Below, in pieces: positions 1 to 18,825 of a DNA stretch of 30,149 bases. Below the pieces are notes generated by a model. The model had not been told where the DNA came from. It was given only the letters and a program-made list of their open reading frames with translations, and ran no database searches. The stretch is from a virus. The DNA lies in the IMG/VR virus record IMGVR_UViG_3300038429_000186, positions 1 to 30,149 of that record; one strand, written 5' to 3'. A program made the position numbers and the translations under genes. How positions within the stretch are numbered: position 1 is the stretch's first letter; the number at the start of each line of letters is the position of its first letter.

Positions 1-3000
1 CCAATCGGCCTTGTTCAATTCCATCCGCGTCAGTTTCAATGAGTCAAATCCTCTTGAACCGCCAGTGAATTTGCCAAACATTTTCCCATACAATCCATAG
101 TCAGTATAAACTTCGTTCGGATCAATATTCGCTCCGGCATCTTTCCAAGTTTGGAAATCCGGGTCGGTTTTCAGTTTGTAAATGATGACTTCGTGGTATT
201 TGGGACTTAACCACATCGGAAACTGTCGAATAAAATTCCTCCACCAAATTACCGAAGCATTGGGTCTAAAAATCAATCCCCCTGCATGGGTGATCATGCC
301 GACCGTGCCGTGATACAAAACAGCAACAGCACGGGTTAAATGATAAGTGTCAGCCAGCCCTTCAACGACTTTTTCCGCTGTGGTTCTGTGCGCGATACGA
401 TATTTTTCAGCCGCATTTGACCATTCCTTCTTCGCAGCATCAGCCTTTGAGGTTGCAGTTGCCACTTTCTGCAAAGCGGCTTGTGTTTTTATCGAAGAAA
501 CACGTTTCGGCTTTGGTTTGAAATCTTGCCTTGCCGCCCGGTCTAAATAATCCGCAGTCCGGTTTGCCAGTTGCGTGAGGCGACGATTGACAGCAATTTC
601 TTCCGGCGATTTTTGCGGCTTACGAAGCTCCCTAATCTGGTCATTCAGGTCGTCGCGCCTCTTTTTCAGTGCATCAAGTTCGGGAGTTGAAGGTTTGACT
701 GGTTGTTTTTTTACAGCAATGTCACCGGATTTTATCTGCTTCTCTTTTTCAGCGATGGATTTTTCGAGCGCATCCTTTTCATGCTCAATTTCTTTGGCGC
801 GTTGTTCCCGCTGAAAATCTTCATTCAAAGACTGCAATTCTTTGAATTCAGCTTTTGCAGCATCACGACGAGCTTTTATTGCTTCCAATTCCTTACTCGT
901 TAAAGGCTTCTTGGCTTGCGGCTTGGCAAACTTACCCTGCTTGGCGTCAACCAGTTTTTGTTCCCAATCCTTCGCGCTCTTTTCCGCTGCCGCCGTTGCC
1001 ATTTTCAACTTTTGCGCGTCACTCAAAGTTCGATTGCCAAAAATCTCCCGATTCTGTTTTTCCAATTCAGCAATTTCCGCTTTGTTCCTTAAAGTTTCCT
1101 CGTTGTCTGGCGATGGTGTTTTCTCACGGACAATTCGCTTGCGTGTGGAATTTTCAAACTTCAAGTCGGCGATGCGGTTTTTTTGCCGAGTCAACTTGGC
1201 TTCCAAAGCGGATCGCAACTGCGTGGCCGGGTCGGTAGTAACAATTCCAAGTTGCCGTTTTAGTTCATTGATTTGAGCTATCCTTCGACGAAGTAAGTCA
1301 GTTGCCTTTGCGCGACCGAAACCCGTCATAAGTCCGGGAAGTCCCTTTTGCAATCGCTCAATGGTTGAAAGTTTCTGCTGCTCCGAACGCGCTTCCGCCA
1401 TGCGAATCTTAATAGGGTCTTGGGTCGCCGGTTTGAACTTCCCATATTGAGTCCACGCATCACGCGATTCGACAGGAGAAATTTCAGGAATGAAATCTTT
1501 CAAAACTTCGTGAACCGCCGCGTCAATTTCCTCGCCCTTGATGTCTTTTGGAACTCGGCCACTTTCAACTTCTTGGCGGACGAAATTCTTGGCAATCGCA
1601 TTTGCGTAACGACCGATGTTTACGTCGCCTTCACCATCCGCCACTGCTTCCCTAATGCCTTCGACGATGGCCTTTTTCTCGGAGACATGATCGCGCGCAC
1701 CAACCTTGGGACGAGTAGCACGTTTTGCCTTTTCAGCAGCGGGGCCAACTCCGGCAATCTTTTTGAATCCTGCATCAAGACTTTGATTTGCTTTCGCCCA
1801 AATTGTTTGAAGCAGCGATTTTATGCCGTCCCCAAAAGTTGACGCCATTTCAGTCGCCCAATCTGCCGACATTTCTGCTCCTGAAATTCCCTTTTCAAAC
1901 ATTTTGCTCGCGCCAAAAATCACAGCATCATCGAAATCCTCCGGGTGAAGCGGGACACCGGAAAACATCGAGGTCGTTCCGTTATGCCGCGCCCTGATTC
2001 TTTCAAGGGCGGCATCGGCATTGGTCTTGAAATAATTTTTCAGCTTTTCAGCCACAAGCCGAACGTGCGGCTCGACTGGTTCAACCTTTTCCTTCGGTTC
2101 TCTGCCAACTGAATCAATCAAATCTTCACGGGCGCGATTTGCCTCCGCATCGGCCTCTGCCGCACGATATTCAGCCTCGTCTTTTAACCTCTGTTTTTCG
2201 GCGGCATCAATCCGTTCAAATTCAGTTTTGATAAAAGCCTCATCCGCCTCCGTCAACGGATGGCTGGTTTTCTTTTGGAAGTCATACCGCATTGATTCCA
2301 AGTTGTAACTGTCACCAACCATGTTTCGTAGAGCGGCAAGTCCGCGTGCAGTTTCCGACTTGGCGGGCGCAATCACTTTTTCCAGAGTGTTCAAATCTTC
2401 GTCCACTCGGTTTTTTTGCTCCGTTAAACGCTGTAAAGCCTCTGCGCGATTTGGAAATTGTCTGGCATCATCGGCGGCTACTGCCATTTCCCTTGCCAAC
2501 CTTGACCTCTCATAAGTCAATTCGGCTTCCCGATACAAAAGCATGGCAACATCACCATCCGACAGTGGCTTAACTTCACCCGCAACCTGGTCGCTCATCA
2601 TGGTGTTGACCAGTTTTGCGGGAGCTTGAGGATCATTGTCAACTTTTGCCAATGCCGCCTGCCACACTTCAGTTTTGAAACTTCTCCGGCCAACTGACGA
2701 AAGCGGTTCTTCACCACGCGCCGCTCGTTGTGCATCAATGGCAGTGATTTTTATTCCAGTAGGCGTGCTTGAACTCGAACGTAAATCTTCCGGCGTTGAT
2801 GCGCCCAATGGTGTGTGCGTCTCTGGCGGCTTCGGCTGAAATAGTTCCGATTGATTCTTTGACTGAAATTCTTCGTTAGCTTTTCTGTCGGCTTCAGACT
2901 TTGCCTTCCCCTTCGTTTCCAGCTTCACTGGCGAGGGGGATTGTTTGGATTTGAGTTCGTTGTTCTTCGCAACAATCCAATCTTGCGCCTCCTCGATTGA

Positions 3001-4506
3001 GGCATCCATTTCCTGCAATTCGTGCTCCGTTTCCGGCGTAGCATTCTTGACGTAAATCGTGTGCGAATCTTCTTCGCTGGCAAAAGCTCGGTTGGAATGG
3101 TCACGGATTGAGATTTGATGCGACTCACCATTTGGAAACTTGGCCGTGATGTAAATTGACCCACCAGACGTTCGGCGAGCTTCGACCTGAACGCCTGGCG
3201 GCGAGTAGATTTTTTGCAGGTCGCTTTCAATCGCCTTTGCAGAAACGAGAAACTTTTCAGTGGATTTTTTGGATGCTGGAATATCTTCATTGTTGTCAAT
3301 GTCCATGAATTTATCAGCAGCATCCAGCACTTCATTTCTTGATTGGTTCGCTTGAAATATCGCCTCTTTATCCGATAACACTCCCCCCACCTTCGTTTCT
3401 GTCGGAACTGGCGAGGCGGTGGGGGTTGGTTTTGAATTTCTTTCAAGTGTGTCAATGAAGTCTTTATAGTGCCAAGAATCGGTTCCTCTAACACCTTCGC
3501 TGTCTTTTACCAAGACCGGCTCGCCTGTTTGCTTGTTTGACCAGACACCATTTGAGTTTTTTTCATATTCATAACCAGCTTTATCAACCGCTGTCGCTAC
3601 GATTGTCGGCTGGGCTGGAACTGGCGCAGCGGTGGAGGGCGGCTCATCAGATGGCGGTGCGACGGGTTTTGCTCCTTTTCCAAGTTGATGTCTTTCGCCC
3701 ATTGTTCCCAAAAGGAACATTGAGCCAACATTACCAACGGCGTCAATCCACGCATCACGCTGTTGGTCTTTTGGCAATGAAAAGATTTGAGTGACTTGTT
3801 GCGCTCCAATAGTTGCTGCTGCACCGCTTGCGCCACCAACTTTATTCAAAGCTGCCTTCGCAACATCGGAAGTGACACCCGCCTTTGCTGCAATCGCTTC
3901 TGTTATCGCTCCTGAATACTTTCCAATGACAGGTAACACTCCGGCAACCACAGCCAGTTTCGGATCAAAACCGTTTGGGGTTGTCCCGAAAGCCATTGCG
4001 CCGAGCAGCGGGTCTGCTGCAAACGCCGCCATTTGTGGAGTGGATTGTATTGTTCCAGCCGTCCCCGCATACGCCGCCCGCGCCACAACCGACATCTTTT
4101 TCATTTCACTCTCAACTGGCATCGGCCTGTCCATCGTAGCAGCTTCGAGATTCCTGAATTTGTTTTCGCCAGTCTTAATCGGAAGTGTGCCAATATCCGC
4201 CAGCGTGCCGGTTATCATCTTTCCTTCACGGGAAAGTCCTTTCCCGATTTCAGGAACTACGCCAGTTTGAGGATCAACAACAGCACGAAGAAAATCCGAT
4301 GACTTTTGCCCTTCATCATAGTCCTTTGAAGCCTTGTCGTAATCTTCAAAACTTGCAAAGCCTGGCGGCGGTTTCAGTTTCAGACTGTCGGCGGCAGAAG
4401 GTTCAGGACTTCCAATAAGTTTGTCGGCATCATCCAGCGAAAGTGTTTTGGGAGTGCTGCCGGAAACTGCTTCATCAGCTTCATCCAATGTGAGTGTTGC
4501 TGGCAT
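1..4506 (-). CDS. Giant phage internal/structural polyvalent-type protein, 3' end outside window
   Basis: The minus strand is open without a stop from the ATG at 4506 to base 1, giving at least 1502 residues; the C-terminus is missing. The N-terminal 60 residues hold two LTLDEAD/LSLDDAD-like motifs. An Ala/Gly-rich stretch at about 155-260 could be membrane-active. From about 640 onward the protein is highly charged and helical, with strong coiled-coil character at about 1060-1390. The segment with RDAWTQYGKF (about 1015) and the visible C-terminal part (about 1390-1500, aromatic, with FRPNASVIWWRNF and YGLYGKMFGKF) resemble, from memory, conserved blocks of very large phage polyvalent or internal proteins. 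It is the last visible gene of the minus virion operon, 4 bases after the previous stop. The likely role is an ejected internal or tail-associated protein; no enzyme motif was recognised. The frame is certain, the function is inferred. Confidence 0.8.
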   Translation of the reverse strand, partial: MPATLTLDEADEAVSGSTPKTLSLDDADKLIGSPEPSAADSLKLKPPPGFASFEDYDKASKDYDEGQKSSDFLRAVVDPQTGVVPEIGKGLSREGKMITGTLADIGTLPIKTGENKFRNLEAATMDRPMPVESEMKKMSVVARAAYAGTAGTIQSTPQMAAFAADPLLGAMAFGTTPNGFDPKLAVVAGVLPVIGKYSGAITEAIAAKAGVTSDVAKAALNKVGGASGAAATIGAQQVTQIFSLPKDQQRDAWIDAVGNVGSMFLLGTMGERHQLGKGAKPVAPPSDEPPSTAAPVPAQPTIVATAVDKAGYEYEKNSNGVWSNKQTGEPVLVKDSEGVRGTDSWHYKDFIDTLERNSKPTPTASPVPTETKVGGVLSDKEAIFQANQSRNEVLDAADKFMDIDNNEDIPASKKSTEKFLVSAKAIESDLQKIYSPPGVQVEARRTSGGSIYITAKFPNGESHQISIRDHSNRAFASEEDSHTIYVKNATPETEHELQEMDASIEEAQDWIVAKNNELKSKQSPSPVKLETKGKAKSEADRKANEEFQSKNQSELFQPKPPETHTPLGASTPEDLRSSSSTPTGIKITAIDAQRAARGEEPLSSVGRRSFKTEVWQAALAKVDNDPQAPAKLVNTMMSDQVAGEVKPLSDGDVAMLLYREAELTYERSRLAREMAVAADDARQFPNRAEALQRLTEQKNRVDEDLNTLEKVIAPAKSETARGLAALRNMVGDSYNLESMRYDFQKKTSHPLTEADEAFIKTEFERIDAAEKQRLKDEAEYRAAEADAEANRAREDLIDSVGREPKEKVEPVEPHVRLVAEKLKNYFKTNADAALERIRARHNGTTSMFSGVPLHPEDFDDAVIFGASKMFEKGISGAEMSADWATEMASTFGDGIKSLLQTIWAKANQSLDAGFKKIAGVGPAAEKAKRATRPKVGARDHVSEKKAIVEGIREAVADGEGDVNIGRYANAIAKNFVRQEVESGRVPKDIKGEEIDAAVHEVLKDFIPEISPVESRDAWTQYGKFKPATQDPIKIRMAEARSEQQKLSTIERLQKGLPGLMTGFGRAKATDLLRRRIAQINELKRQLGIVTTDPATQLRSALEAKLTRQKNRIADLKFENSTRKRIVREKTPSPDNEETLRNKAEIAELEKQNREIFGNRTLSDAQKLKMATAAAEKSAKDWEQKLVDAKQGKFAKPQAKKPLTSKELEAIKARRDAAKAEFKELQSLNEDFQREQRAKEIEHEKDALEKSIAEKEKQIKSGDIAVKKQPVKPSTPELDALKKRRDDLNDQIRELRKPQKSPEEIAVNRRLTQLANRTADYLDRAARQDFKPKPKRVSSIKTQAALQKVATATSKADAAKKEWSNAAEKYRIAHRTTAEKVVEGLADTYHLTRAVAVLYHGTVGMITHAGGLIFRPNASVIWWRNFIRQFPMWLSPKYHEVIIYKLKTDPDFQTWKDAGANIDPNEVYTDYGLYGKMFGKFTGGSRGFDSLKLTRMELNKADW

Positions 4507-7324: not shown

Positions 7325-9739
7325 CTAATGGCATATTGCGATAATGTTCACATTTTGAGAAATCACAGTGTTTGTTATGTATATGGTTGTGGCCCAACAA
7401 CCAGTCGCCGTAAATGTTATATTTGTCAACACAGTTGAATTCAATAGTACCACTCCATTGCTGCTACTATAAATAATAGCTCCGCTTGATGAGTTGTAAA
7501 TCTTGCAATCATTCGGAGTTGCTGGAAGCGCACTCCAACTCGGACTAGAGTAAGAACTATTTCCTGTGGTAAGACTAACAAAGCCGTAAGGAGAACCAGT
7601 AACCCCTCCGATATACCCCGACACCGCTTGAACTGGAGAATTGTATTGATAGTAAGCATTGACTGTCGCGTGAACGCCGCTGCTATTGGTTGTGTAGGTA
7701 ATAGCGACATTGTTTCCCGCGACGAGTGTTGTGACCAAGTTTGGTGTGAAAAGAATCTGGTTTGTGGAAATAGTTGACCAGTTCGTGAGATTTCCTGATT
7801 TGGGCTGTAATCCTGCCGTGCTGGAAGCGTAAAGATTTGTCGTGGAACCGAGCGTAACGGTTATCACCCCGCCATTCGTCGCAAAACTTGCCGTCATATT
7901 CGAGTTCACGGTGACACTTCCTACGAGTGCCTGATTCGTTCCCCAATGAAGCGCGATGGTGTTGACGTTGGTGGTGTTTGCCAAAGTCAGATAATTGCTC
8001 GAAGCGTTTAGCGTGGTAATGGTCGCATACGGCGCAATAGCGGATATGACGGATGAGGTTGTGGCGTAATACGCCGCCACATTGGACGACTGCAAATAAT
8101 TCTGGTTCGTCACAAAAGCAATAGTCGCAAGGCCGTTTGTTATCGCGCTTGTGACGGCTCCGTTTGTCGCAGTGTTCACATAGTTCGTCGTCGCCAATCC
8201 GTTCGTGATGCTCTGTGTAGCAAAACCATTTGTTGCCGTGTTCACATAAGCAATGGTCGCCAGACCGTTCGTAATGGACGATGTGACGAAACCATTGGTG
8301 GCTGGAATCACCGGCGCATTAGTGAATTTTGAATAGTTCAGATTGCTGGTCGTAGTTAAATAATTCCCCAAAAGATTATATGTTGAAGCTGCAACCGAAG
8401 ATAGTATCAAACCGTTGGTAAAGGCTTTCGCATTGGTGTAATCGTTGATGGCCGCCAGATAAGTCGCCCATGTGTTTGCGTTTGTGGTGAACGCGCCCCA
8501 TTGCGCCAGCGTAATTGCATAGAGGTTGGTTATGTAGGTGATGTTGGTCGCCGCAGGATCAAGGCCAACGGAATAAGAGTAACCGCCCGCCGACAAGTTC
8601 GACGAAACCAACAAACCACCGCCGTTGGTGATGAGTGTGATTACGCCGCTACCGAGCGCGGTCATGTTACTGACGGCGGATGATGTGATATATTTTGATG
8701 GATTATTTGAGTAGCTGTTGTTGACAATGTTTGTCATGGCAACCCCAGTCGCAAGGCCGTTTGTGACTGCGGCTTTCACCATTCCATTCGTAGCCGTGAT
8801 GACGTATTGAGTTGAGGCAAGCCCGTTGGTGATCGTGCCGCCAACAAAGCTCGACGCTGACGCAACAAGGCTTGTTGTTTGTGAAGCAACCCCATTTGAC
8901 GACAAAAGCAACTGAGTCTGTGTGGCCAAGTTGGTGTTCGACGGCGGGGGTAGTGTCTGGAAAACATTGGAGGCTTCGCCGTTGGTGTCCGCGTATTGAG
9001 AGAAATTGCTGATGGTCAACCCGCCAGCATTTTGCAACAGAGATTCGGTGATGTATGAGGCCGCAGCGGAATTAGCAAGTGTGACGGTTGGGGCTGGCGG
9101 GGCTGCAACGTGAAGTGTTTGCCAGTTTATCATGTTGGTAGAAACATATATTTCTACGCGGGTAGTTGCACGTCCTCTGATAGCATAACTCCTTGATGTA
9201 GTATAAACTATTGCGGTAACAAGAGAAAAGCTAGTAACGGGTTGAAGCTCTACAGAGGGAAGGACAGAAGCGTCTCCGCCTGTAACGAATTGGAATGTTC
9301 CGGGGGCGCATAAACCGTAACCAAGAAGGCAATCGTCGTTTGTTCCGAAGGTAATTGTGTAGGTCGTGTTGACTTGTAAAAATTGACCTAAGTAAAACTG
9401 GCGGACAGAATAATAAGACCCCGCAGGTATGACGTTTTCAAACGGCACTGTTTCTTGAATTTCGTAATACTGATTGGTATAAACAAGAGGATTAGTGGAC
9501 TGTAAATAATAATTCCCATTTGCCAATGATTCACCCGCACCTGACACAACATAGTATTGCTGTCCTTGTCCTTGTTGCTGCTGCAAAACACCATTTGCCG
9601 CCCCAGTGATGGCAAACGAAGGGTCTTTGTTGGTCGTGAATGTATTTTGCTTGATGCCAATGGGCGTCTGCGCCAAAGCCTTTGGACAAAAGATGGCTAG
9701 ACAAAAAATGGTAAGACAAATTTGGGCTATGTTTTTCAT
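7325..9739 (-). CDS. Secreted-type fibre/adhesin-like repeat protein (paralogue 2)
   Basis: An 804-residue protein using the ATG at 9739, which overlaps the previous stop as ATGA. The open frame extends 80 codons further upstream, but that part lies inside the neighbouring gene. The first 24 residues form a classic signal peptide (MKNIAQICLTIFCLAIFCPK, cleavage after ALA). The body is Asn/Thr/Ser/Ala-rich. It carries imperfect 22-residue repeats of the type TNGLATTNYVNTATNGFVT in at least two groups (about 260-340 and 460-560), typical of trimeric beta or coiled fibre shafts. The C-terminal 150 residues are non-repetitive, end in a hydrophobic-A-I-C-H tail, and probably form the tip. It is clearly paralogous to the gene at 9736-11553. 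It is probably a host-recognition fibre. The signal peptide is unusual for a phage structural protein. Confidence 0.8.
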   Translation of the reverse strand: MKNIAQICLTIFCLAIFCPKALAQTPIGIKQNTFTTNKDPSFAITGAANGVLQQQQGQGQQYYVVSGAGESLANGNYYLQSTNPLVYTNQYYEIQETVPFENVIPAGSYYSVRQFYLGQFLQVNTTYTITFGTNDDCLLGYGLCAPGTFQFVTGGDASVLPSVELQPVTSFSLVTAIVYTTSRSYAIRGRATTRVEIYVSTNMINWQTLHVAAPPAPTVTLANSAAASYITESLLQNAGGLTISNFSQYADTNGEASNVFQTLPPPSNTNLATQTQLLLSSNGVASQTTSLVASASSFVGGTITNGLASTQYVITATNGMVKAAVTNGLATGVAMTNIVNNSYSNNPSKYITSSAVSNMTALGSGVITLITNGGGLLVSSNLSAGGYSYSVGLDPAATNITYITNLYAITLAQWGAFTTNANTWATYLAAINDYTNAKAFTNGLILSSVAASTYNLLGNYLTTTSNLNYSKFTNAPVIPATNGFVTSSITNGLATIAYVNTATNGFATQSITNGLATTNYVNTATNGAVTSAITNGLATIAFVTNQNYLQSSNVAAYYATTSSVISAIAPYATITTLNASSNYLTLANTTNVNTIALHWGTNQALVGSVTVNSNMTASFATNGGVITVTLGSTTNLYASSTAGLQPKSGNLTNWSTISTNQILFTPNLVTTLVAGNNVAITYTTNSSGVHATVNAYYQYNSPVQAVSGYIGGVTGSPYGFVSLTTGNSSYSSPSWSALPATPNDCKIYNSSSGAIIYSSSNGVVLLNSTVLTNITFTATGCWATTIYITNTVISQNVNIIAICH

Positions 9740-11553
9740 TCGCAAAAGGCAATGACCGTCACCGTTACGTTTGTTGGTATTGTCCCATTGTCGGTGAAGG
9801 TGAAGTAGCATGAAGATGACGAAACATAAGTGAACGCCAAAGAAATGTTGCCACCACTTGAATAGCCTGTCCCATTGTAATAAACCATGAGCGATGGAGC
9901 AGAACACGCCAGTCCGTGTGAAAAATACTGTTGTATTTGAGTTCCGTGCGCGGGCGTAATGAATGTTCCTGATTGCCATGCCACCGAAGTCTGGTCAACA
10001 CCCGAACCGATGGTGTAAGTTATTCCGTTGGCGTTTGTGCTACCTTGAACTGTTGCGCCTGTGTTTTGTGTAATCGAAGTCACAACATTCGTGGTGAGCA
10101 AAATCGTGTTTGTTGGAACACCAGACCAGTTCGTGAGATTCGCGCTGGCTGGTTGAAAGCCGGTAACTGCTCCGCCATAAGAACCGAGGGTGGCTGTGAT
10201 AACCCCGGCGTTGGTCACGAATGAAACTGTCATATTGGATGAAAGAGCGATAACACCGACAAACGGTTGGCTGATAGGCCATGTCTGGGTGATGGCGGTT
10301 GCGTTGGATGAAATCTGCGTCTGCAACGAATTACTTTCCGAATTCAAACCCGTTGACGTGATTAAAGAGTTCAAAGAATTACTCAGGGAGTTCAGTGTGG
10401 TGTAGTTGCTCAAAATACCGGCGTTGGTGTAATTTTGTGCAAGCACCCAGTTGGTCGTCGCCAATCCGCTTATGATGGCCGCTGTTACAAAACCATTTGT
10501 TGCCGCGTTCACATAGTTCGTCGTCGCCAATCCGCTTATGATGGCCGCTGTTACAAAACCATTTGTTGCCGCGTTCACATAGTTCGTCGTCGCCAATCCG
10601 CTTATGATGGCCGCTGTTACAAAACCGTTCGTTGTGGGGATGGCCGGTTGATTGGTGACATTGTTGTAGTTGAGATTGTTGCTTGAGGTCAAGTAAGTCC
10701 CAACTGGCTGATAAGTAGCCGCTGCGGTTGCGGCAGGCAACAGGCCATTCGTGTATTGCTTTGCATTGGTGTAATCGTTGATCGGAGCAACATAAGCTGA
10801 CCAAGACGAGGAATTAGTCGTCAGTGCGCCATACGAAGCGAGACTGGTTGCATTTAAGTTTGTCACATTGACATTGTTCGTGCCGGTCGCCGTCAATGAA
10901 ACCGTGATGCCCGATGCAGACGAATAAGATGCAACGACGATGCCTTGGCCGTTTTGAATTTGCGTGACAACATTGCTTCCAAAAGCCGTGATGTTGTTTG
11001 TAGCTGATGGGGTCAAGTAGCTGGACGGATTGTTTGAATAAACCGCGTTGGCTTCATTTGTAACCGCCGTCAATGAAGCAAGTCCGCTTATGATGGCCGC
11101 TGTTACAAAACCATTTGTTGCCGCGTTCACATAGTTGGTTGAAGCAAGGCCATTGGTCACGGAAGCTGTTACCAGCCCGTTTGTTGCGGTATTGAACGCG
11201 GCGATTTCGTTTGTGACGAGCGCATTGGTCGCCACTACAAGCTGGTTACTGGTCACAAGATTCGCCGGAAGGTTGGTTGCGGCGTAATTCGTCGCCTGAC
11301 TGTATAAGTAAGCCGCCGCGCCGTTGGTGTCCGCATAATTAGCGTAGTTGTTCGTGTCCAGACCGCCAGCGGCTTCGATGACTCCCGGTGAAAGCGATGC
11401 GGTGATGCTGCCTTGAATTGCGCCCGTAGCGATATTCGTCGCCAGATTCAGCGCGTCGTAAGGGTCGTTCGTGGTGAACGGGTTGTAATAAAACTGTGTC
11501 GCGCCAAGCCGAAGGCCGAGCAGCAACGCCGCCGTTATGAGAAACTTTTTCAT
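9736..11553 (-). CDS. Secreted-type fibre/adhesin-like repeat protein (paralogue 1)
   Basis: A 605-residue protein from ATG 11553, overlapping the previous stop as ATGA; a TTG two codons upstream is less likely. The N-terminus MKKFLITAALLLGLRLGATQ is a signal peptide with a KK n-region and a hydrophobic core. Residues 110-360 hold 22-residue repeats (ATNGFVTAAIISGLATTNYV type), of which three consecutive copies are identical at DNA level. The block INDYTNAKQYTNGLL followed by NLNYNNVTNQPAIP is shared with the downstream paralogue, so the pair arose by duplication. The C-terminal domain (about 480-605) differs from its paralogue but ends similarly (hydrophobic-A-F-C-E). The likely role is a trimeric receptor-binding fibre; this is inferred from repeats and operon position. 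Confidence 0.8.
   Translation of the reverse strand: MKKFLITAALLLGLRLGATQFYYNPFTTNDPYDALNLATNIATGAIQGSITASLSPGVIEAAGGLDTNNYANYADTNGAAAYLYSQATNYAATNLPANLVTSNQLVVATNALVTNEIAAFNTATNGLVTASVTNGLASTNYVNAATNGFVTAAIISGLASLTAVTNEANAVYSNNPSSYLTPSATNNITAFGSNVVTQIQNGQGIVVASYSSASGITVSLTATGTNNVNVTNLNATSLASYGALTTNSSSWSAYVAPINDYTNAKQYTNGLLPAATAAATYQPVGTYLTSSNNLNYNNVTNQPAIPTTNGFVTAAIISGLATTNYVNAATNGFVTAAIISGLATTNYVNAATNGFVTAAIISGLATTNWVLAQNYTNAGILSNYTTLNSLSNSLNSLITSTGLNSESNSLQTQISSNATAITQTWPISQPFVGVIALSSNMTVSFVTNAGVITATLGSYGGAVTGFQPASANLTNWSGVPTNTILLTTNVVTSITQNTGATVQGSTNANGITYTIGSGVDQTSVAWQSGTFITPAHGTQIQQYFSHGLACSAPSLMVYYNGTGYSSGGNISLAFTYVSSSSCYFTFTDNGTIPTNVTVTVIAFCE
10456..10626. repeat. 66-bp tandem repeat inside fibre gene
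   Basis: A 66-bp unit is repeated about 2.6 times without a visible mismatch; its internal landmark CTTATGATGGCCGCTGTTAC begins at 10469, 10535 and 10601. A further copy of about 54 identical bases lies at 11083-11136. Each unit encodes 22 residues of the fibre shaft, so copy-number change keeps the reading frame. Confidence 0.95.
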
Positions 11554-14500
11554 AGCCAAGTTTGTGTGATGGGATTCCAGTTATACACCGTCAGGGTGTC
11601 CAAGTCGTAATAAATGCCAGCCCCATTCGCCGGTTTCTGTGTTAGCGGAACTCCATGCCCCGAAATGTAGTCCGAACCGAGCGAAGTTGCAATCACACCG
11701 CTGCCGATTGCGGTTGTATCGCTACCCCAATAACCCGCCGGATTCCAGAAATACAACGCCCTGTTTGTGTAATCGAAATATGTCCCCGCGTTGTTGGCGG
11801 GCGTCGGCGTGGCGACGGTCGGCGCACCTGAACCGGCAAACGCCTGCCGCCCGGTGCAGATCACAAACGATCCCGTGGGCGTGATTCCGGTGTCCCATTG
11901 CGTTCCGAGCCACAGATAAAATTCTTCATCAAGGACATCCCAATAAATACCCGCCAAGTTTCCTGGGTTTTGGGTTGTCGGCGCGCCCGACGCGGCGAAC
12001 ATCTGTTTCAACAGCACGGCTGGCGGTGTAGGTGGCGTAGGCGGAATGGGAATGATTGGTCTGGCAAATTCCGATTGCGGCACAACCGAGGCTTTTTCGG
12101 CCAAGCCCATAAAATTACACGAGCCAACCACCGTCACCCGAACTTGAAAATCATATCCATCACGATATTGAGTGCCGGAAACCGACGCGCCGCCGATTGG
12201 ATTGCCAAGCCCCATCCTGACGGCATAAGGGACATTGCCTTTGGTGTTGTCCACGCTCCACGAATACCACGGATGCCACAACGTATCGTAATCCGGCCTG
12301 AATTCGACCATGAACCCGACTTGTCCGATGATGTTCTGGACATAAACTTCTCCGTCTTCCAACCGCAATAAATCGTATTCACCCGCGCTTTCATTCCGGC
12401 CAAAAAGCACCGAGGATTCAAACTGCCATGTCGTCGTTGTTGTGCCGGTAATGTCCTGACCGTCGGCCGTCATCAACAATTCCGAAAAACCGATGGTTGT
12501 CCCGTTTGATGTGAATGAAAAACAGCGAACTTTGTTCCCGAAAATTCCCGTCATCCATTGCAAGGTGTTCAATCCTGTCCATTCCCCCTCCCAAACTGCC
12601 GGAGATTTGTTTTGCAAATTGCTGACCGCATCAAGATTCATCACCGCAGCATTTTGAAAATATGCGCCGTTGATTCCGCTGACGGGCGAACAGCCAAAGA
12701 TGACGCGGTTATCAAATTGTATTGCCGAACAGAAATTGATCAGGCTCGGATTATCACTATCGAGTGCCAAGTGAACTTCCTGACTGCATGGTGTGCTGTT
12801 CCATTTGTAAAAGTCCAATGAAGCAATGGTCATGGAACGGATACCATCAGGCGCGCGAAACAGGATGTCGCCGTTCACCGGAATTGTTGACCACTGCGAT
12901 AATCCGCCAGCGCCAATAAGCGACACTGTGACAATCGGAGTTGTCAGACTTGGCCATGTAGTCATGTCCGCCGGGGCACTGACGCTGAAAACGCTTTGCG
13001 TCGTAAAAACTTGAAGCGGCCCCTGCCCAAGCTGGACATTCATCGTTGGGGCGACAACCAACGCCCTGATTGTGCCGTAGTTTCCGGGGATGCTAAACGT
13101 GCCGCCGTTGGACAGAAGCGTGTTCTGCATCGTGTAGAGGATGGCATCGAGAAAACCGTTTGCCGCCGTCCCGCTGGAACTACCAACCGCATCACCCGCA
13201 ACAAACTGAGTGCCGTTGGGAAGCGATGTCCAGATTCGTCCCTGACAATATGTCCACGCCTTGCCGCAGGGTATTCCGATTACAGTTTGAACGACGACAT
13301 TTTGCAACACAATTCCGGCGACGACTGAATTGTTTGTCAGGTAATAGGTCGTAGCAGTAGATGGTGAATCAATAGTGCATTGCAAATTAGCCGCTGGAAT
13401 GGTTGTGTTACTGCCGACAAAAACAGTCGCTCCCTGTGTTGAAGTGGTCGGATAAGACGCACCTCCTGAAAGCACAACCGCCAATGCTGTATTCGGAAAG
13501 CTGTAAGTTAATCCTGTCCCGCCAATGGTTCCAATCGGAGCGTAGCTGACAACCGGCACTGTGGCTTGCGTCTGGTATTGAAGCGTGATGGCGGTGATTT
13601 GAGAATTACTTCCGTAGGGGTCGGATGGAAGCGGGATGGTGAAACTGCCCGCCGCAATCATGGACGGCGTGATGGAATTGGAAGTCACTTGCGCTGTTTG
13701 CCCTGTGGGTTGTAGGGGACTACCATAGGGTGAACCCACCACAGCAGCCCACTGTGCGACTGTTGCGACTGCCACCAATGAGCCGGACACAAATCCGGTT
13801 GTATTTTGAGCATTGTTGGCATCGGCGGTATTAACGGTCGGGTTTGGAGAATACGCAATCGGATAACTCCCGCCGATATTTATAGTCGGATTGCTTATTG
13901 GGTAATTTGAATTTTGGAGAAAAATCGTGTCCCCGGTTTTAACAGTTCCCGTTGCCGCCGAAGAAAGCAACGCCCCGCCGGTCATTGGCGGAACAATCGT
14001 AAGTGCCATTTGTCCGATGTATTGCCCCCCGGCATAGGCAGGCGTAACAGGACTTATCCCCACCGCAATACCCCCCGATGGCGCATAAAGGGCAACCGGA
14101 ATGTTGAAGAACTTCGGGTCAATAGTTGTGATGTCCGTCGTAACTGTTGCTACAATGACACCGCCAGAAACAGGAGCTACAAGCGCGGTTCCATTCGAGA
14201 ATGTTCCAACGACTTGTTGCAGCGAATACGAGCGGAAAGATTTGTTGCCGTCAAACACAAGCGGGTTTGGCGTTGTCCCATCCTGCACGATGAGATAATT
14301 TTCCGCTTGGTCAAGCCACGCTTGCGGCGCGGTCGCCGAGTTCAAATCTGCCTGAACTGGACTTGAGCCTGAAACGGTCGGCGTGTATTCCACAACCGCA
14401 ATCATTCCTGGTGAAGCAACGTAAGCTCCTGCAATGCTGACCGAGAAATCCGGCGTGAATCCGAACAACCGTCCGCTGATGAGCGCAAAGAATGTCGGGC

Positions 14501-14840: not shown

Positions 14841-17678
14841 ATGTATTGTTGGCTCATGCTCAAATACGGATTTGATTTGGACAACAACCTTGACCCGCTT
14901 GCCATTGAGCTTTCTGTTTTAGCTCAATCTGATGCATCCCTAAAATATCACGGGACAAACCGGCTTCAGCATTATCTTAATGCCCACAAATTGCTCTGGC
15001 CGGAAGATGACCAACATCGCTGGTTCGTGCAAGGAATGAAAGCCATCGTTGAAAATAAGGTGAGTGTATTTCTTGGATCGGCCAGTTGTGTTTCGGGTGA
15101 CACCCGAATTTTGAATCCTCTAACCGGAGAACAACCGACAATACGAGAACTTTACGAAAAACAAATCGCTCCAACGGTGCTGACACTAGCGGGAGCAGCA
15201 CAAGCGGGCATCCCCTTCATTAAAGGTGAAGAAGATTTATACGAAGTCGTTTTGGAAAACGGACAACGATTCAAGGCGACTGCATCTCACCGCGTCTTAG
15301 CCACAAATGGGGACTTTTGCCACGTCTCAAATCTCCGGTTCGGTTCCCTGATTCTTTCATACGAGCAAAACCTTCAGGACTCCAATTCGGAACACAACCC
15401 TTTAACTCTTGTGCTAAATGTTCCCGATTCTCTGAAAAAAGTTGCAAGTTTTCAGGAGAATTATTCTGCTTGTTCTTGTCCCGATGATGAACGACTTCTT
15501 CCGGCAGCAAAAAACGGCCAATCATCTTTTCCATCACAAGACGATGCTCTAAAATATAAGGCGTATGCTTCCGGCGGTGGGGATGATCAGGACAATACAC
15601 CGTCGCATAACCGTCCTTGTCGATTATTCTACCTCCCTTCCAAGCGTAGTGGCGTTCAGCCTTTTTGCTCGTCAAAAAATCTCGCGTCACGCCATGCTCG
15701 CGCAAAAACCTTTTTACATGACGCCCCCCAGTTCCAATCCGACGACCAATTTCATCCAAACTTGAACCGGACTGTTCCATTTCAAAAACCAACTTCTGAT
15801 TTTTATGGCACGCACTATTTGGATGAAGTTTTGTTTTCGGGAATTTCTCACCAGCAGCCTTTAAAACATTCCGAGTCGCTGCAATCTTCATGTTTGACAG
15901 TCGAGCGGTCACAACCAAATCTCTGTTCAGATGAAGAAAAAGAGACAAAATTCGAGAATCCCTTTTCGCGTTCCGTTTGTAATAATGAGTCATATCGTTT
16001 CAAGGTATCACAATCGCGGGTGGTGTCAATAACTAAATCCCACAAAGAAACATTCTATGATTTGTGTGTTCCAAACGTGCATCATTATTTTGCGGAGGGA
16101 GCAATCCATCACAATTCGGGAAAAACTTATCTGATGGCCGCTCATTGCCTGATAACTTTTTGGGCTTTCCCATTCACATCGTTTGCGCTGGTTTCCTCGA
16201 CGGATATGCGGAGTCTTGACCAGAAAATCTGGGGAAGGGGAATCAAGTGGCTTTTCAATCGTGCGCGGGAGCGCTACGGCTGGCTGGACGGCTACCTGCT
16301 CGAATCCGCAAGGGCGATTGTCCCGGACAAAATTGACGATGAAGGCCAATTCGCTCGACTGCTCTCTCGCGGCATAGCTTGCGTTCCTTGTATTTCAGGC
16401 GGCCGCTTCGTTGGCATGGGAAAATATCAGGGTGTTAAAGCCCCTAGCTCGCCCGGAAAGCACGATGGACTGTTGACTCATTACGGAGATGAATCCGCTG
16501 TTATGGAAACCAGCTATCTCGACGCATACACAAACTGGACTGTGGATGATAATTTCAAGGGCGTCCAATCTGGCAACCCGACTGACATCTCCGACCCCCT
16601 TTGCACCGCCGCCGAACCGATTGGCGGTTGGGACTCATTCATTGACAATGGTAAAACTCAAGAGTGGACTTCGCGTTGGCATGATGCCCATGTCGTTGCG
16701 TTCGATGGCAGGGACACCCCAAACAATGACCAGTCGGAAACAAAATATCATTTCCTGATTTCAAAACCGTTTATCGAAGGGCTGCGAAAAACTTATGGCG
16801 ACGATTCATGGCAGCTTTATCAGCAGGGCATCGGCAAACCGTCAAAGGGGATGGTTTCAAATCGCGTCATCACCATCGGTCTTTGCGAACAGCATCACGC
16901 ATTTGATTCTGTTGTCTGGAAGGGAACGCCGCGAACGAAACTCTACGCTTTAGACCCGGCGTATGGCGGTGGCGACCGTTGCGTTGGTGGCGAGTGCGAA
17001 TATGGTGAGGACAAGGACGGCAACATTATTTTCTCGGTAGGCACACCGGAAATAATTCCAATCCGACTGAACTCATCGCTCGATGCCGAAGGACAAATAG
17101 CGGAGTTCATCAAACAGCAATCCGACCGGCTCGGTATTCCACCAAAAAACATTTTCTACGATTCATTTGGGCGCGGCACACTCGGATCGTCCTTCGCAAA
17201 GCAGTTCGGTTTTAACTGCCCAATTCCTGTGGACTCCGGCGCGCGCCCAACTGACAGGCCGGTGCGATTCGATTTATTTGTGGACGATGGAAAGAATGGA
17301 AAACGGCTGAAACGGTGCGATGAACAATACCAAAAGTTCGTAACCGAATTGTGGTATTCGATGCGAGAAGCCATTGAGTCAGATCAAGTGCGGTCTTTGC
17401 CGATGGAAGTCGCCCAAGAAGGCCAGTGCAGATTGTTCAAAACTGTTGCCGGAAACAAAATCGAAGTCGAACCAAAAGAGGACATGAAGGACCGGTTAAA
17501 GAAATCTCCCGACCTGATGGACTGGTGTTGCGTAGCCCTTGAAGGTGCTAGGCAACTTGGCTTCCAGATTCAGCGCATTGGCCGGAACGTGAAATCCACA
17601 GCCAACGAGGAAGATTATTTTACAAAAGAATCGGAAGAATGGAATAACGCTATCAAGGCCGGACTTTTGAAACATTGA
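14841..17678 (+). CDS. terL: Terminase large subunit precursor, interrupted by an intein in the Walker A loop
   Basis: The DNA-packaging motor and nuclease. The precursor has 945 residues; removing residues 83-425 (intein) leaves 602, a normal TerL length. The rejoined extein reads GSAS|SGKT at 79-82/426-429, a Walker A loop. Walker B with the catalytic acid is at THYGDES (D550, E551). The C-terminal RNase-H-like nuclease carries its three acidic sites at LYALDPAYGGGD (D705), IFYDSFG (D774) and PDLMDW (D891/D894). The ATG at 14841 is used; ATG 14856 is an alternative, and neither has a good Shine-Dalgarno. Function requires protein splicing, because the intein separates the P-loop residues. 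It is divergent from the virion operon and followed by HNH and portal genes. The identification is secure from motifs and gene order. Confidence 0.95.
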   Translation: MYCWLMLKYGFDLDNNLDPLAIELSVLAQSDASLKYHGTNRLQHYLNAHKLLWPEDDQHRWFVQGMKAIVENKVSVFLGSASCVSGDTRILNPLTGEQPTIRELYEKQIAPTVLTLAGAAQAGIPFIKGEEDLYEVVLENGQRFKATASHRVLATNGDFCHVSNLRFGSLILSYEQNLQDSNSEHNPLTLVLNVPDSLKKVASFQENYSACSCPDDERLLPAAKNGQSSFPSQDDALKYKAYASGGGDDQDNTPSHNRPCRLFYLPSKRSGVQPFCSSKNLASRHARAKTFLHDAPQFQSDDQFHPNLNRTVPFQKPTSDFYGTHYLDEVLFSGISHQQPLKHSESLQSSCLTVERSQPNLCSDEEKETKFENPFSRSVCNNESYRFKVSQSRVVSITKSHKETFYDLCVPNVHHYFAEGAIHHNSGKTYLMAAHCLITFWAFPFTSFALVSSTDMRSLDQKIWGRGIKWLFNRARERYGWLDGYLLESARAIVPDKIDDEGQFARLLSRGIACVPCISGGRFVGMGKYQGVKAPSSPGKHDGLLTHYGDESAVMETSYLDAYTNWTVDDNFKGVQSGNPTDISDPLCTAAEPIGGWDSFIDNGKTQEWTSRWHDAHVVAFDGRDTPNNDQSETKYHFLISKPFIEGLRKTYGDDSWQLYQQGIGKPSKGMVSNRVITIGLCEQHHAFDSVVWKGTPRTKLYALDPAYGGGDRCVGGECEYGEDKDGNIIFSVGTPEIIPIRLNSSLDAEGQIAEFIKQQSDRLGIPPKNIFYDSFGRGTLGSSFAKQFGFNCPIPVDSGARPTDRPVRFDLFVDDGKNGKRLKRCDEQYQKFVTELWYSMREAIESDQVRSLPMEVAQEGQCRLFKTVAGNKIEVEPKEDMKDRLKKSPDLMDWCCVALEGARQLGFQIQRIGRNVKSTANEEDYFTKESEEWNNAIKAGLLKH
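15271..15993 (-). CDS. HNH homing endonuclease encoded antisense inside the terL intein
   Basis: A 240-residue protein on the strand opposite terL, lying wholly within the intein. Residues 65-100 look like a helix-turn-helix (SGSSLDEIGRRIGTGGRHVK). Residues 128-192 form an HNH_3-type nuclease: YATVYCPDHPHRRKHTPYIL, EHRLVMEKMIGRFLLPEEVV, then HH169-170, N182 in SPENLQLF and H192. The tail VPNWSPEGFARM is also typical of these enzymes. The start may be ATG 15993 or ATG 15891 (MKIAATRNVLKAAGEK); neither has a clear ribosome site. Its codons are offset by one base from the terl sense codons, so both frames are open over about 241 codons. The expected role is cutting intein-less terL alleles to spread the intein. 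Homology is clear; activity is inferred. Confidence 0.88.
   Translation of the reverse strand: MTHYYKRNAKRDSRILSLFLHLNRDLVVTARLSNMKIAATRNVLKAAGEKFPKTKLHPNSACHKNQKLVFEMEQSGSSLDEIGRRIGTGGRHVKRFLREHGVTRDFLTSKKAERHYAWKGGRIIDKDGYATVYCPDHPHRRKHTPYILEHRLVMEKMIGRFLLPEEVVHHRDKNKQNNSPENLQLFSENREHLAQELKGCVPNWSPEGFARMKESGNRTGDLRRGKSPHLWLRRGEMQSP
16002..16029 (-). promoter_or_regulatory. Candidate promoter of the antisense HNH gene, within the intein
   Basis: Reading on the minus strand, a perfect TTGACA (16029-16024) is followed after 16 bases by TACCTT (16007-16002). The predicted start is at about 15995, next to the ATG at 15993, which would give a nearly leaderless mRNA. The -10 box matches only at its key positions (TA...T). 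Confidence 0.4.
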
Positions 17679-17749: not shown

Positions 17750-18073
17750 GTGTATATCTTAAAATCCTATAACAATCCTCTGCCGAACAATTATGTTTAT
17801 GAACAGACTGAAGGCGTCCGTCACCGTTTCGGAGCAAACCCAATCATCGAAGAAGTCGTTAAGGCTGTCAGTTCATTTCGAATCGCCAACAATCTTCCCC
17901 GTTCCAGTCTGTGTGAGTGCCTCGAAGACGTTGACCGCTTTAACTGCGCCGTTCGACAAAATGACGAACGATTCTGCTGGAATTGCTCTGAACCTTTTGA
18001 TCGCGTCCACCAAAATCACCACTTCATTAAACAAAATTGTGCAGGCTGCGGAACGCCTGTAAAAACAGATTAA
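17750..18073 (+). CDS. Small conserved-type phage protein with C-terminal zinc ribbon
   Basis: A 107-residue protein with a GTG start at 17750; no ATG exists early in this frame. The N-terminal half (LPNNYVYEQ...FRIANNLPRSS) is helical and looks like a common phage small-protein motif. The C-terminal 35 residues contain CWNC and CAGC pairs about 22 residues apart, a probable four-cysteine zinc ribbon. It lies between terminase and the HNH gene, 5 bases before the latter's start. The function is unknown; its position suggests head or packaging-related or DNA-binding work. Confidence 0.7.
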   Translation: MYILKSYNNPLPNNYVYEQTEGVRHRFGANPIIEEVVKAVSSFRIANNLPRSSLCECLEDVDRFNCAVRQNDERFCWNCSEPFDRVHQNHHFIKQNCAGCGTPVKTD

Positions 18074-18078
18074 ATTTT

Positions 18079-18825
18079 ATGCCCCAGACCGCCGAATACT
18101 GGAAATTGTATAGGCAGCGAAACAAAGAGAAGATACGCGCACACAACAAAAACTACTATCTAAAAAACAAAGATCACGTTTTAAGCACGGGGAAGATTTG
18201 GCGTAACAATAACCGTGAAAAAATGGCGGAACTTAACAAGGCGTGGAAAGCGCGGCATCCAGAAAAGAAGAAGATTTGGTCGGAACGGTCAAAGATTTGG
18301 AGGAAAAAAAATCCCGAAAAGGTGAAGGCAACGAAGTTGAGGTATTATTATCGCCACAGAGAACGTGACCGAGAAAGACTTCGCCCCAAAAGACGAGCTT
18401 ACTACCAAAGGCCAGAAGTCAAAAAGAGAATTGCAGAGCAATCAAAAGCGTGGCATAAAAATAATCCAGAAAAAGTGCGAGAGAAATCGAAGCGTTGGGC
18501 TTTGAAAAACAGGCACAAGATACGCATTTATGCTGCCAGCGGAACTCAAAAACGTCGCGCTTTCAAACTCGGTAACACAATAAACCCTGTTGCGATAAAT
18601 AAATTTGTAAGGGGGATTCGAGCAACAAAACAAGTTGCCTGCTACTATTGTAAAAATAAAACCGCTGGCAAAACTGCTCACATAGACCATATTGTTCCAT
18701 TGAGCAAAGGCGGCGCACACAGTGTAACAAATCTTTGTGCGAGTTGCCCTAGTTGCAATCAACATAAACACGACAAGCTGATTCAGGATTGGATGAGGCT
18801 TGGGCAACAAGTATTGGCACTATGA
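18079..18825 (+). CDS. HNH endonuclease with repetitive basic N-terminal region
   Basis: A 248-residue protein from ATG 18079. Residues 1-165 are extremely basic and built from imperfect repeats of the type W-x(3-5)-NPEK-x-(K/R) (for example KAWKARHPEKKK, KIWRKKNPEKVK, KAWHKNNPEKVR), probably a DNA-contacting helical array. Residues 185-235 form a C-terminal HNH nuclease with CYYC, the HIDHIVPLSKGG core, N and CPSC zinc cysteines, ending QHKHDKL. It sits between the 17750 gene and portal, and its TGA overlaps the portal ATG. It is probably a free-standing homing endonuclease that invaded between terminase and portal; alternatively a packaging-associated HNH nuclease. The family is clear, the role inferred. 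Confidence 0.88.
   Translation: MPQTAEYWKLYRQRNKEKIRAHNKNYYLKNKDHVLSTGKIWRNNNREKMAELNKAWKARHPEKKKIWSERSKIWRKKNPEKVKATKLRYYYRHRERDRERLRPKRRAYYQRPEVKKRIAEQSKAWHKNNPEKVREKSKRWALKNRHKIRIYAASGTQKRRAFKLGNTINPVAINKFVRGIRATKQVACYYCKNKTAGKTAHIDHIVPLSKGGAHSVTNLCASCPSCNQHKHDKLIQDWMRLGQQVLAL

Follow-up and report, generated by a model that had tools for sequence, protein, structure and literature searches.

A phage terminase intein with a putative homing-endonuclease gene encoded on the opposite DNA strand

Homing inteins are described as fusions of a protein-splicing domain and an endonuclease in one chain: in canonical class 1 elements (for example, PI-PfuI and TliVMA) the endonuclease lies between splicing blocks B and F, and intein endonuclease domains have been described as nested domains at one conserved site (PMC6801210). 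Antisense homing genes are known in group I introns (for example, Didymium L2066, encoding I-DsqI; PMC9548176), and an out-of-frame HNH on the host's own strand, without splicing domains, is known in phage methylases (PMC11855218), whose authors call it neither an intein nor an intron. In the literature searched, which did not extend to the contents of a preprint on actinobacteriophage inteins with 'non-canonical architecture' (10.1101/2025.01.02.630785; the main risk to novelty) or of Gorbalenya 1998 (PMC147447), we found no antisense homing gene in an intein. Here we analyse such an arrangement in the terminase large subunit gene (terL) of a phage (IMG/VR record IMGVR_UViG_3300038429_000186, positions 1 to 30,149; the window hereafter is this whole stretch of 30,149 nucleotides). 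A preliminary description, made from the sequence alone, proposed that a terL intein with complete blocks A, B, F and G splits the P-loop, that its endonuclease slot is open but featureless in the sense frame and filled by an antisense 240-aa HNH gene, and that endonuclease expression is thereby separated from host-protein synthesis. Our analyses confirm the observation, support the interpretation and extend the arrangement to dozens of diverse phages.

The terL precursor is a single open frame on the plus strand (14841–17678, 945 aa) comprising the N-extein, intein and C-extein. In hmmscan searches, its only Pfam match was Intein_splicing (8.7e-11; 6.9e-12 for the intein alone), and the only match above the curated cut-off for the minus-strand open reading frame (15271–15993, 240 aa) was HNH_3 (2.6e-10). 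The intein (15087–16115, plus strand, 343 aa) runs from C1 to a terminal HHN343, is followed by a +1 Ser and splits the Walker A motif as GSAS|SGKT. Four contigs (L036–L039) encode TerLs that are 97% identical in the best segment and that read GSAS|SGKT with no insert, in flanking DNA that is about 86–91% identical; the intein-less homologue L036 matches PHROG 2 (terminase large subunit; E 1.7e-8 over residues 54–563). C1, the block-B His (H68) and N343 are invariant and H342 is at least 90% conserved over 37 inteins, whereas H170 and N182 of the HNH are invariant and H169 and H192 are at least 90% conserved over 41 HNHs. Neither an Rfam match nor a tRNA was found in the window, and the intein blocks are complete and in frame, which leaves a group I or II intron with an antisense homing gene a very remote possibility. 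A second HNH gene (18037–18825, plus strand; HNH_5 5.5e-13, HNH 1.9e-12) lies just downstream of terL and looks like a separate free-standing homing gene, as L036–L039 lack about 0.74 kb between window positions 18062 and 18951. Elsewhere in the window, units of about 66 bases are repeated (10449–10634 and 11079–11139) within the minus-strand open reading frame at 9736–11559, a stretch over which near-identical contigs differ by small gaps.

Structure prediction was consistent with this anatomy. In the AF2 model of the sense intein, residues 1–95 and 305–343 had pLDDT values of about 97, corresponding to the N-terminal splicing half (15087–15371, plus strand; blocks A and B) and the C-terminal half (15999–16115, plus strand; blocks F and G), and the best Foldseek match was the Mtu RecA intein (1.7e-7), indicating a predicted HINT fold. 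By contrast, most of the sense linker (15372–15998, plus strand), which lies antisense to the HNH gene, had pLDDT values below 50 and is predicted to be disordered; no endonuclease was detected in it by Pfam searches. The HNH was modelled with a mean pLDDT of 89 and consists of a predicted N-terminal helical (helix-turn-helix, HTH) part at about residues 9–100 and an HNH nuclease core at about residues 118–197; for the whole model, Foldseek returned I-HmuI (probability 0.97, 25% identity) and bipartite HTH domains of the Mos1/Tc3 type, although all with weak E-values. The HNH gene does more than fill the slot, a refinement of the preliminary description: its last ~30 codons overlap the sequence that encodes the intein block B region (15271–15371), including the block-B His codon at 15288–15290.

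To determine whether the layout is conserved, we searched with the HNH protein and found near-identical copies, with the same open reading frame intact in several contigs from different samples, as well as divergent relatives. Ten divergent loci also lie antisense inside inteins with an unbroken sense frame, among them L006 (69% HNH identity), L007 (49%), L008 (57%), L012 (41%) and L010/L014 (53%), the last two in a DNA polymerase clamp loader rather than TerL. An alignment search returned 80 top viral loci, and classification of all loci collected with HMMs of the N- and C-blocks identified 64 non-identical loci that have the HNH antisense with both blocks in one frame, and none that has it on the sense strand; two more (L073 and L110) were missed by the HMMs but are nested on inspection. 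All 64 share the same relative phase, in which the HNH third codon position is the second sense position, and a search with the HNH of Pectobacterium phage Sabo gave 17 more loci, all nested and open in that phase. In one locus (L099; C-extein 2367–3701, minus strand), the intein sits in the P-loop of a protein that matches PHROG 5156 (unknown function) and is weakly SbcC/Rad50-like, and thus not an evident terminase. Because both intein halves lie in one uninterrupted frame in every nested locus examined, a split intein with a free-standing endonuclease gene between two separately translated halves is excluded for this family.

The arrangement is also present in cultured phages. Sabo and seven related Pectobacterium/Dickeya phages carry it in a TerL gene annotated as a hypothetical protein or in an unannotated record, and Pseudoalteromonas phage PHS3 (KX912252; L041 1161–3287, minus strand) carries it with TerL annotated only from downstream of the insert and the HNH listed separately, so that the N-extein and splicing blocks are unannotated. 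Cultured Klebsiella and Escherichia phages have related TerLs whose matches leave out the intein. The paper on the Ymer group does not mention an intein or HNH. Given that TerL is needed for packaging, the viability of these phages implies that their inteins splice, although this is an inference.

Both frames are under selection. For 40 representatives, recoding of the HNH with synonymous codons predicts ~281 sense stops in total and 0 were observed, whereas free-standing HNH relatives (the main yield of a scan of bacterial genomes for nested HNHs) show 490 against 471 expected in the same frame. For the window itself, 0 of 60,000 synonymous recodings left the sense frame open (mean, 7.7 stops). 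In pairs of relatives, differences in the nested segment concentrate at the HNH third position (sense position 2), while those in the N-block concentrate at sense position 3; for L054/L055, HNH identity is 69% and sense-linker identity 31%. The HNH protein is therefore maintained and the sense linker merely kept open. In the homologous overlap of relatives, where the HNH C terminus overlaps the block B region, sense third-position differences fall from 0.59 to 0.29 per codon, as expected if both proteins matter there. Long antisense open reading frames may arise opposite constrained genes, and the sense linker does align between relatives, but the codon-position test, together with the HNH_3 match and the conserved catalytic residues, refutes the view that the HNH is a shadow of a conserved linker.

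We next looked for signals of separate expression. On the antisense strand, within the sequence that encodes the intein C-block, a sigma70-like promoter precedes the HNH family-wide (mean score, 8.16 against 6.72 in extein controls). The signal exceeds that of synonymous recodings of the sense protein (mean Z 2.13, Fisher about 1e-18), whereas the same test gave Z 0.15 for the N-block, −0.3 to 0.4 for extein segments and a weak excess (0.58) for the sense orientation of the C-block; the pooled P value is optimistic, given that the loci are related by descent and the score weights are ad hoc. Most loci not used in the first test repeat the signal, including a perfect TTGACA-18-TATAAT in L215, while two of three HNH-less mini-inteins show none and the third is not significant. 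A Shine–Dalgarno-like motif precedes the first ATG in 11 of 40 loci (4.5 expected). In the window, the candidate promoter (16002–16029, minus strand) reads TTGACA (16029–16024), 16 nt, TACCTT (16007–16002), 8 nt before the HNH ATG, but is only marginal (score 8.3, P 0.053) and is not accompanied by a Shine–Dalgarno sequence. The endonuclease may thus no longer be active in this copy, with the element inherited vertically and only splicing maintained; however, we consider this unlikely, as the 240-aa HNH is intact with all catalytic residues and no stops.

To examine origin independently of the HNH, we surveyed loci keyed only on the intein C-block and found 53 loci, 38 of them non-identical. 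Of these, 34 carry this antisense HNH family (one, L193, only as a C-terminal remnant in a 148-aa intein, showing HNH decay by deletion), three are mini-inteins of 134–147 aa that lack the linker and HNH (L187, L195 and L216), none has a sense HNH, and one (L207 3383–3970, minus strand) carries a different, Cys-containing HNH (Pfam HNH 1.3e-6) antisense in another phase, with 0 sense stops against 5.3 expected (P 0.001); its only other relative found is L219. The architecture therefore seems to have arisen at least twice, and the mini-inteins suggest that linker and HNH are dispensable for splicing. The nested HNHs form one clade (FastTree support 0.904, on the basis of a short alignment and one tree method) that includes one free-standing member, L116, whose antisense frames are all broken. 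HNH distances correlate with HINT distances (Mantel r 0.63), which is not clearly stronger than their correlation with extein distances (0.58) and does not settle whether HNH and HINT travel strictly together. It remains possible, although doubtful, that the HNH is a free-standing homing gene that parasitized the slot of a mini-intein and homes for itself, as would fit the free-standing relatives, the modest HNH–HINT congruence and the occupation of the same slot by another HNH family in L207; against this, empty terL alleles lack the entire intein and not only the HNH, HNH-less mini-inteins are a minority (3 of 38), and one phase and one clade over many hosts imply long co-transmission.

Taken together, these data are best explained, with high confidence, by a homing intein whose two functions are encoded on opposite strands of the same DNA, although splicing, antisense transcription and translation, cleavage and homing are inferred from sequence. 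In this model, terL is translated straight through the element, the N- and C-terminal blocks fold into a HINT splicing domain with the linker as a disordered loop, and protein splicing restores the TerL P-loop; a separate antisense gene makes a free HTH–HNH endonuclease that cuts or nicks intein-less terL alleles at the P-loop, and repair copies the whole element in. The linker would be held open only because a sense stop would destroy TerL, and the HNH would be held by its homing function. Somewhat more likely than not, these elements represent a widespread, previously undescribed class of phage inteins in which the endonuclease is independently transcribed, with its promoter written into the codons of the C-terminal splicing block and its C terminus into the block B region, and in which the layout arose at least twice with different HNH families, decoupling endonuclease dose and timing from host-protein synthesis. 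Such a family would give inteins independent control of endonuclease expression, as introns have, and offers an extreme overlapping-gene system in which the main constraint on one frame is to stay open while that on the other is function. The natural triad of full element, mini-intein and empty site makes the homing cycle and its decay directly testable.

Compared with canonical homing inteins, the element shares the predicted HINT splicing domain, the C1, His and Asn residues, the endonuclease slot, a P-loop insertion site and empty alleles, but its endonuclease is encoded on the opposite strand as a separate gene rather than in the same polypeptide. Split inteins in fractured genes, in which a separate endonuclease may be encoded between the intein halves, differ in that the intein here is one continuous chain overlapped antisense by the endonuclease gene. 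I-HmuI-type homing endonucleases share the HNH core, whereas the predicted DNA-binding HTH part lies N-terminal here and may resemble bipartite Mos1/Tc3-type domains. The ShiLan-type insert of phage methylases (PMC11855218) likewise hides an HNH out of frame in an insert whose host-frame reading is open, but on the same strand as the host and without intein blocks or splicing; an antisense mirror of it may occur in a Nitrospira MAG (L136), in which an HNH relative (3004–3471, plus strand) lies inside an open 989-aa methyltransferase-like frame (4489–1523, minus strand) with no intein blocks seen and 0 sense stops against about 9 expected. Group I introns with antisense homing genes (PMC9548176) also carry the homing gene on the strand opposite to the host gene inside a self-splicing element, but they splice at the RNA level, so host and homing frames need not both stay open, whereas here the same DNA must be open in both directions because splicing is at the protein level.
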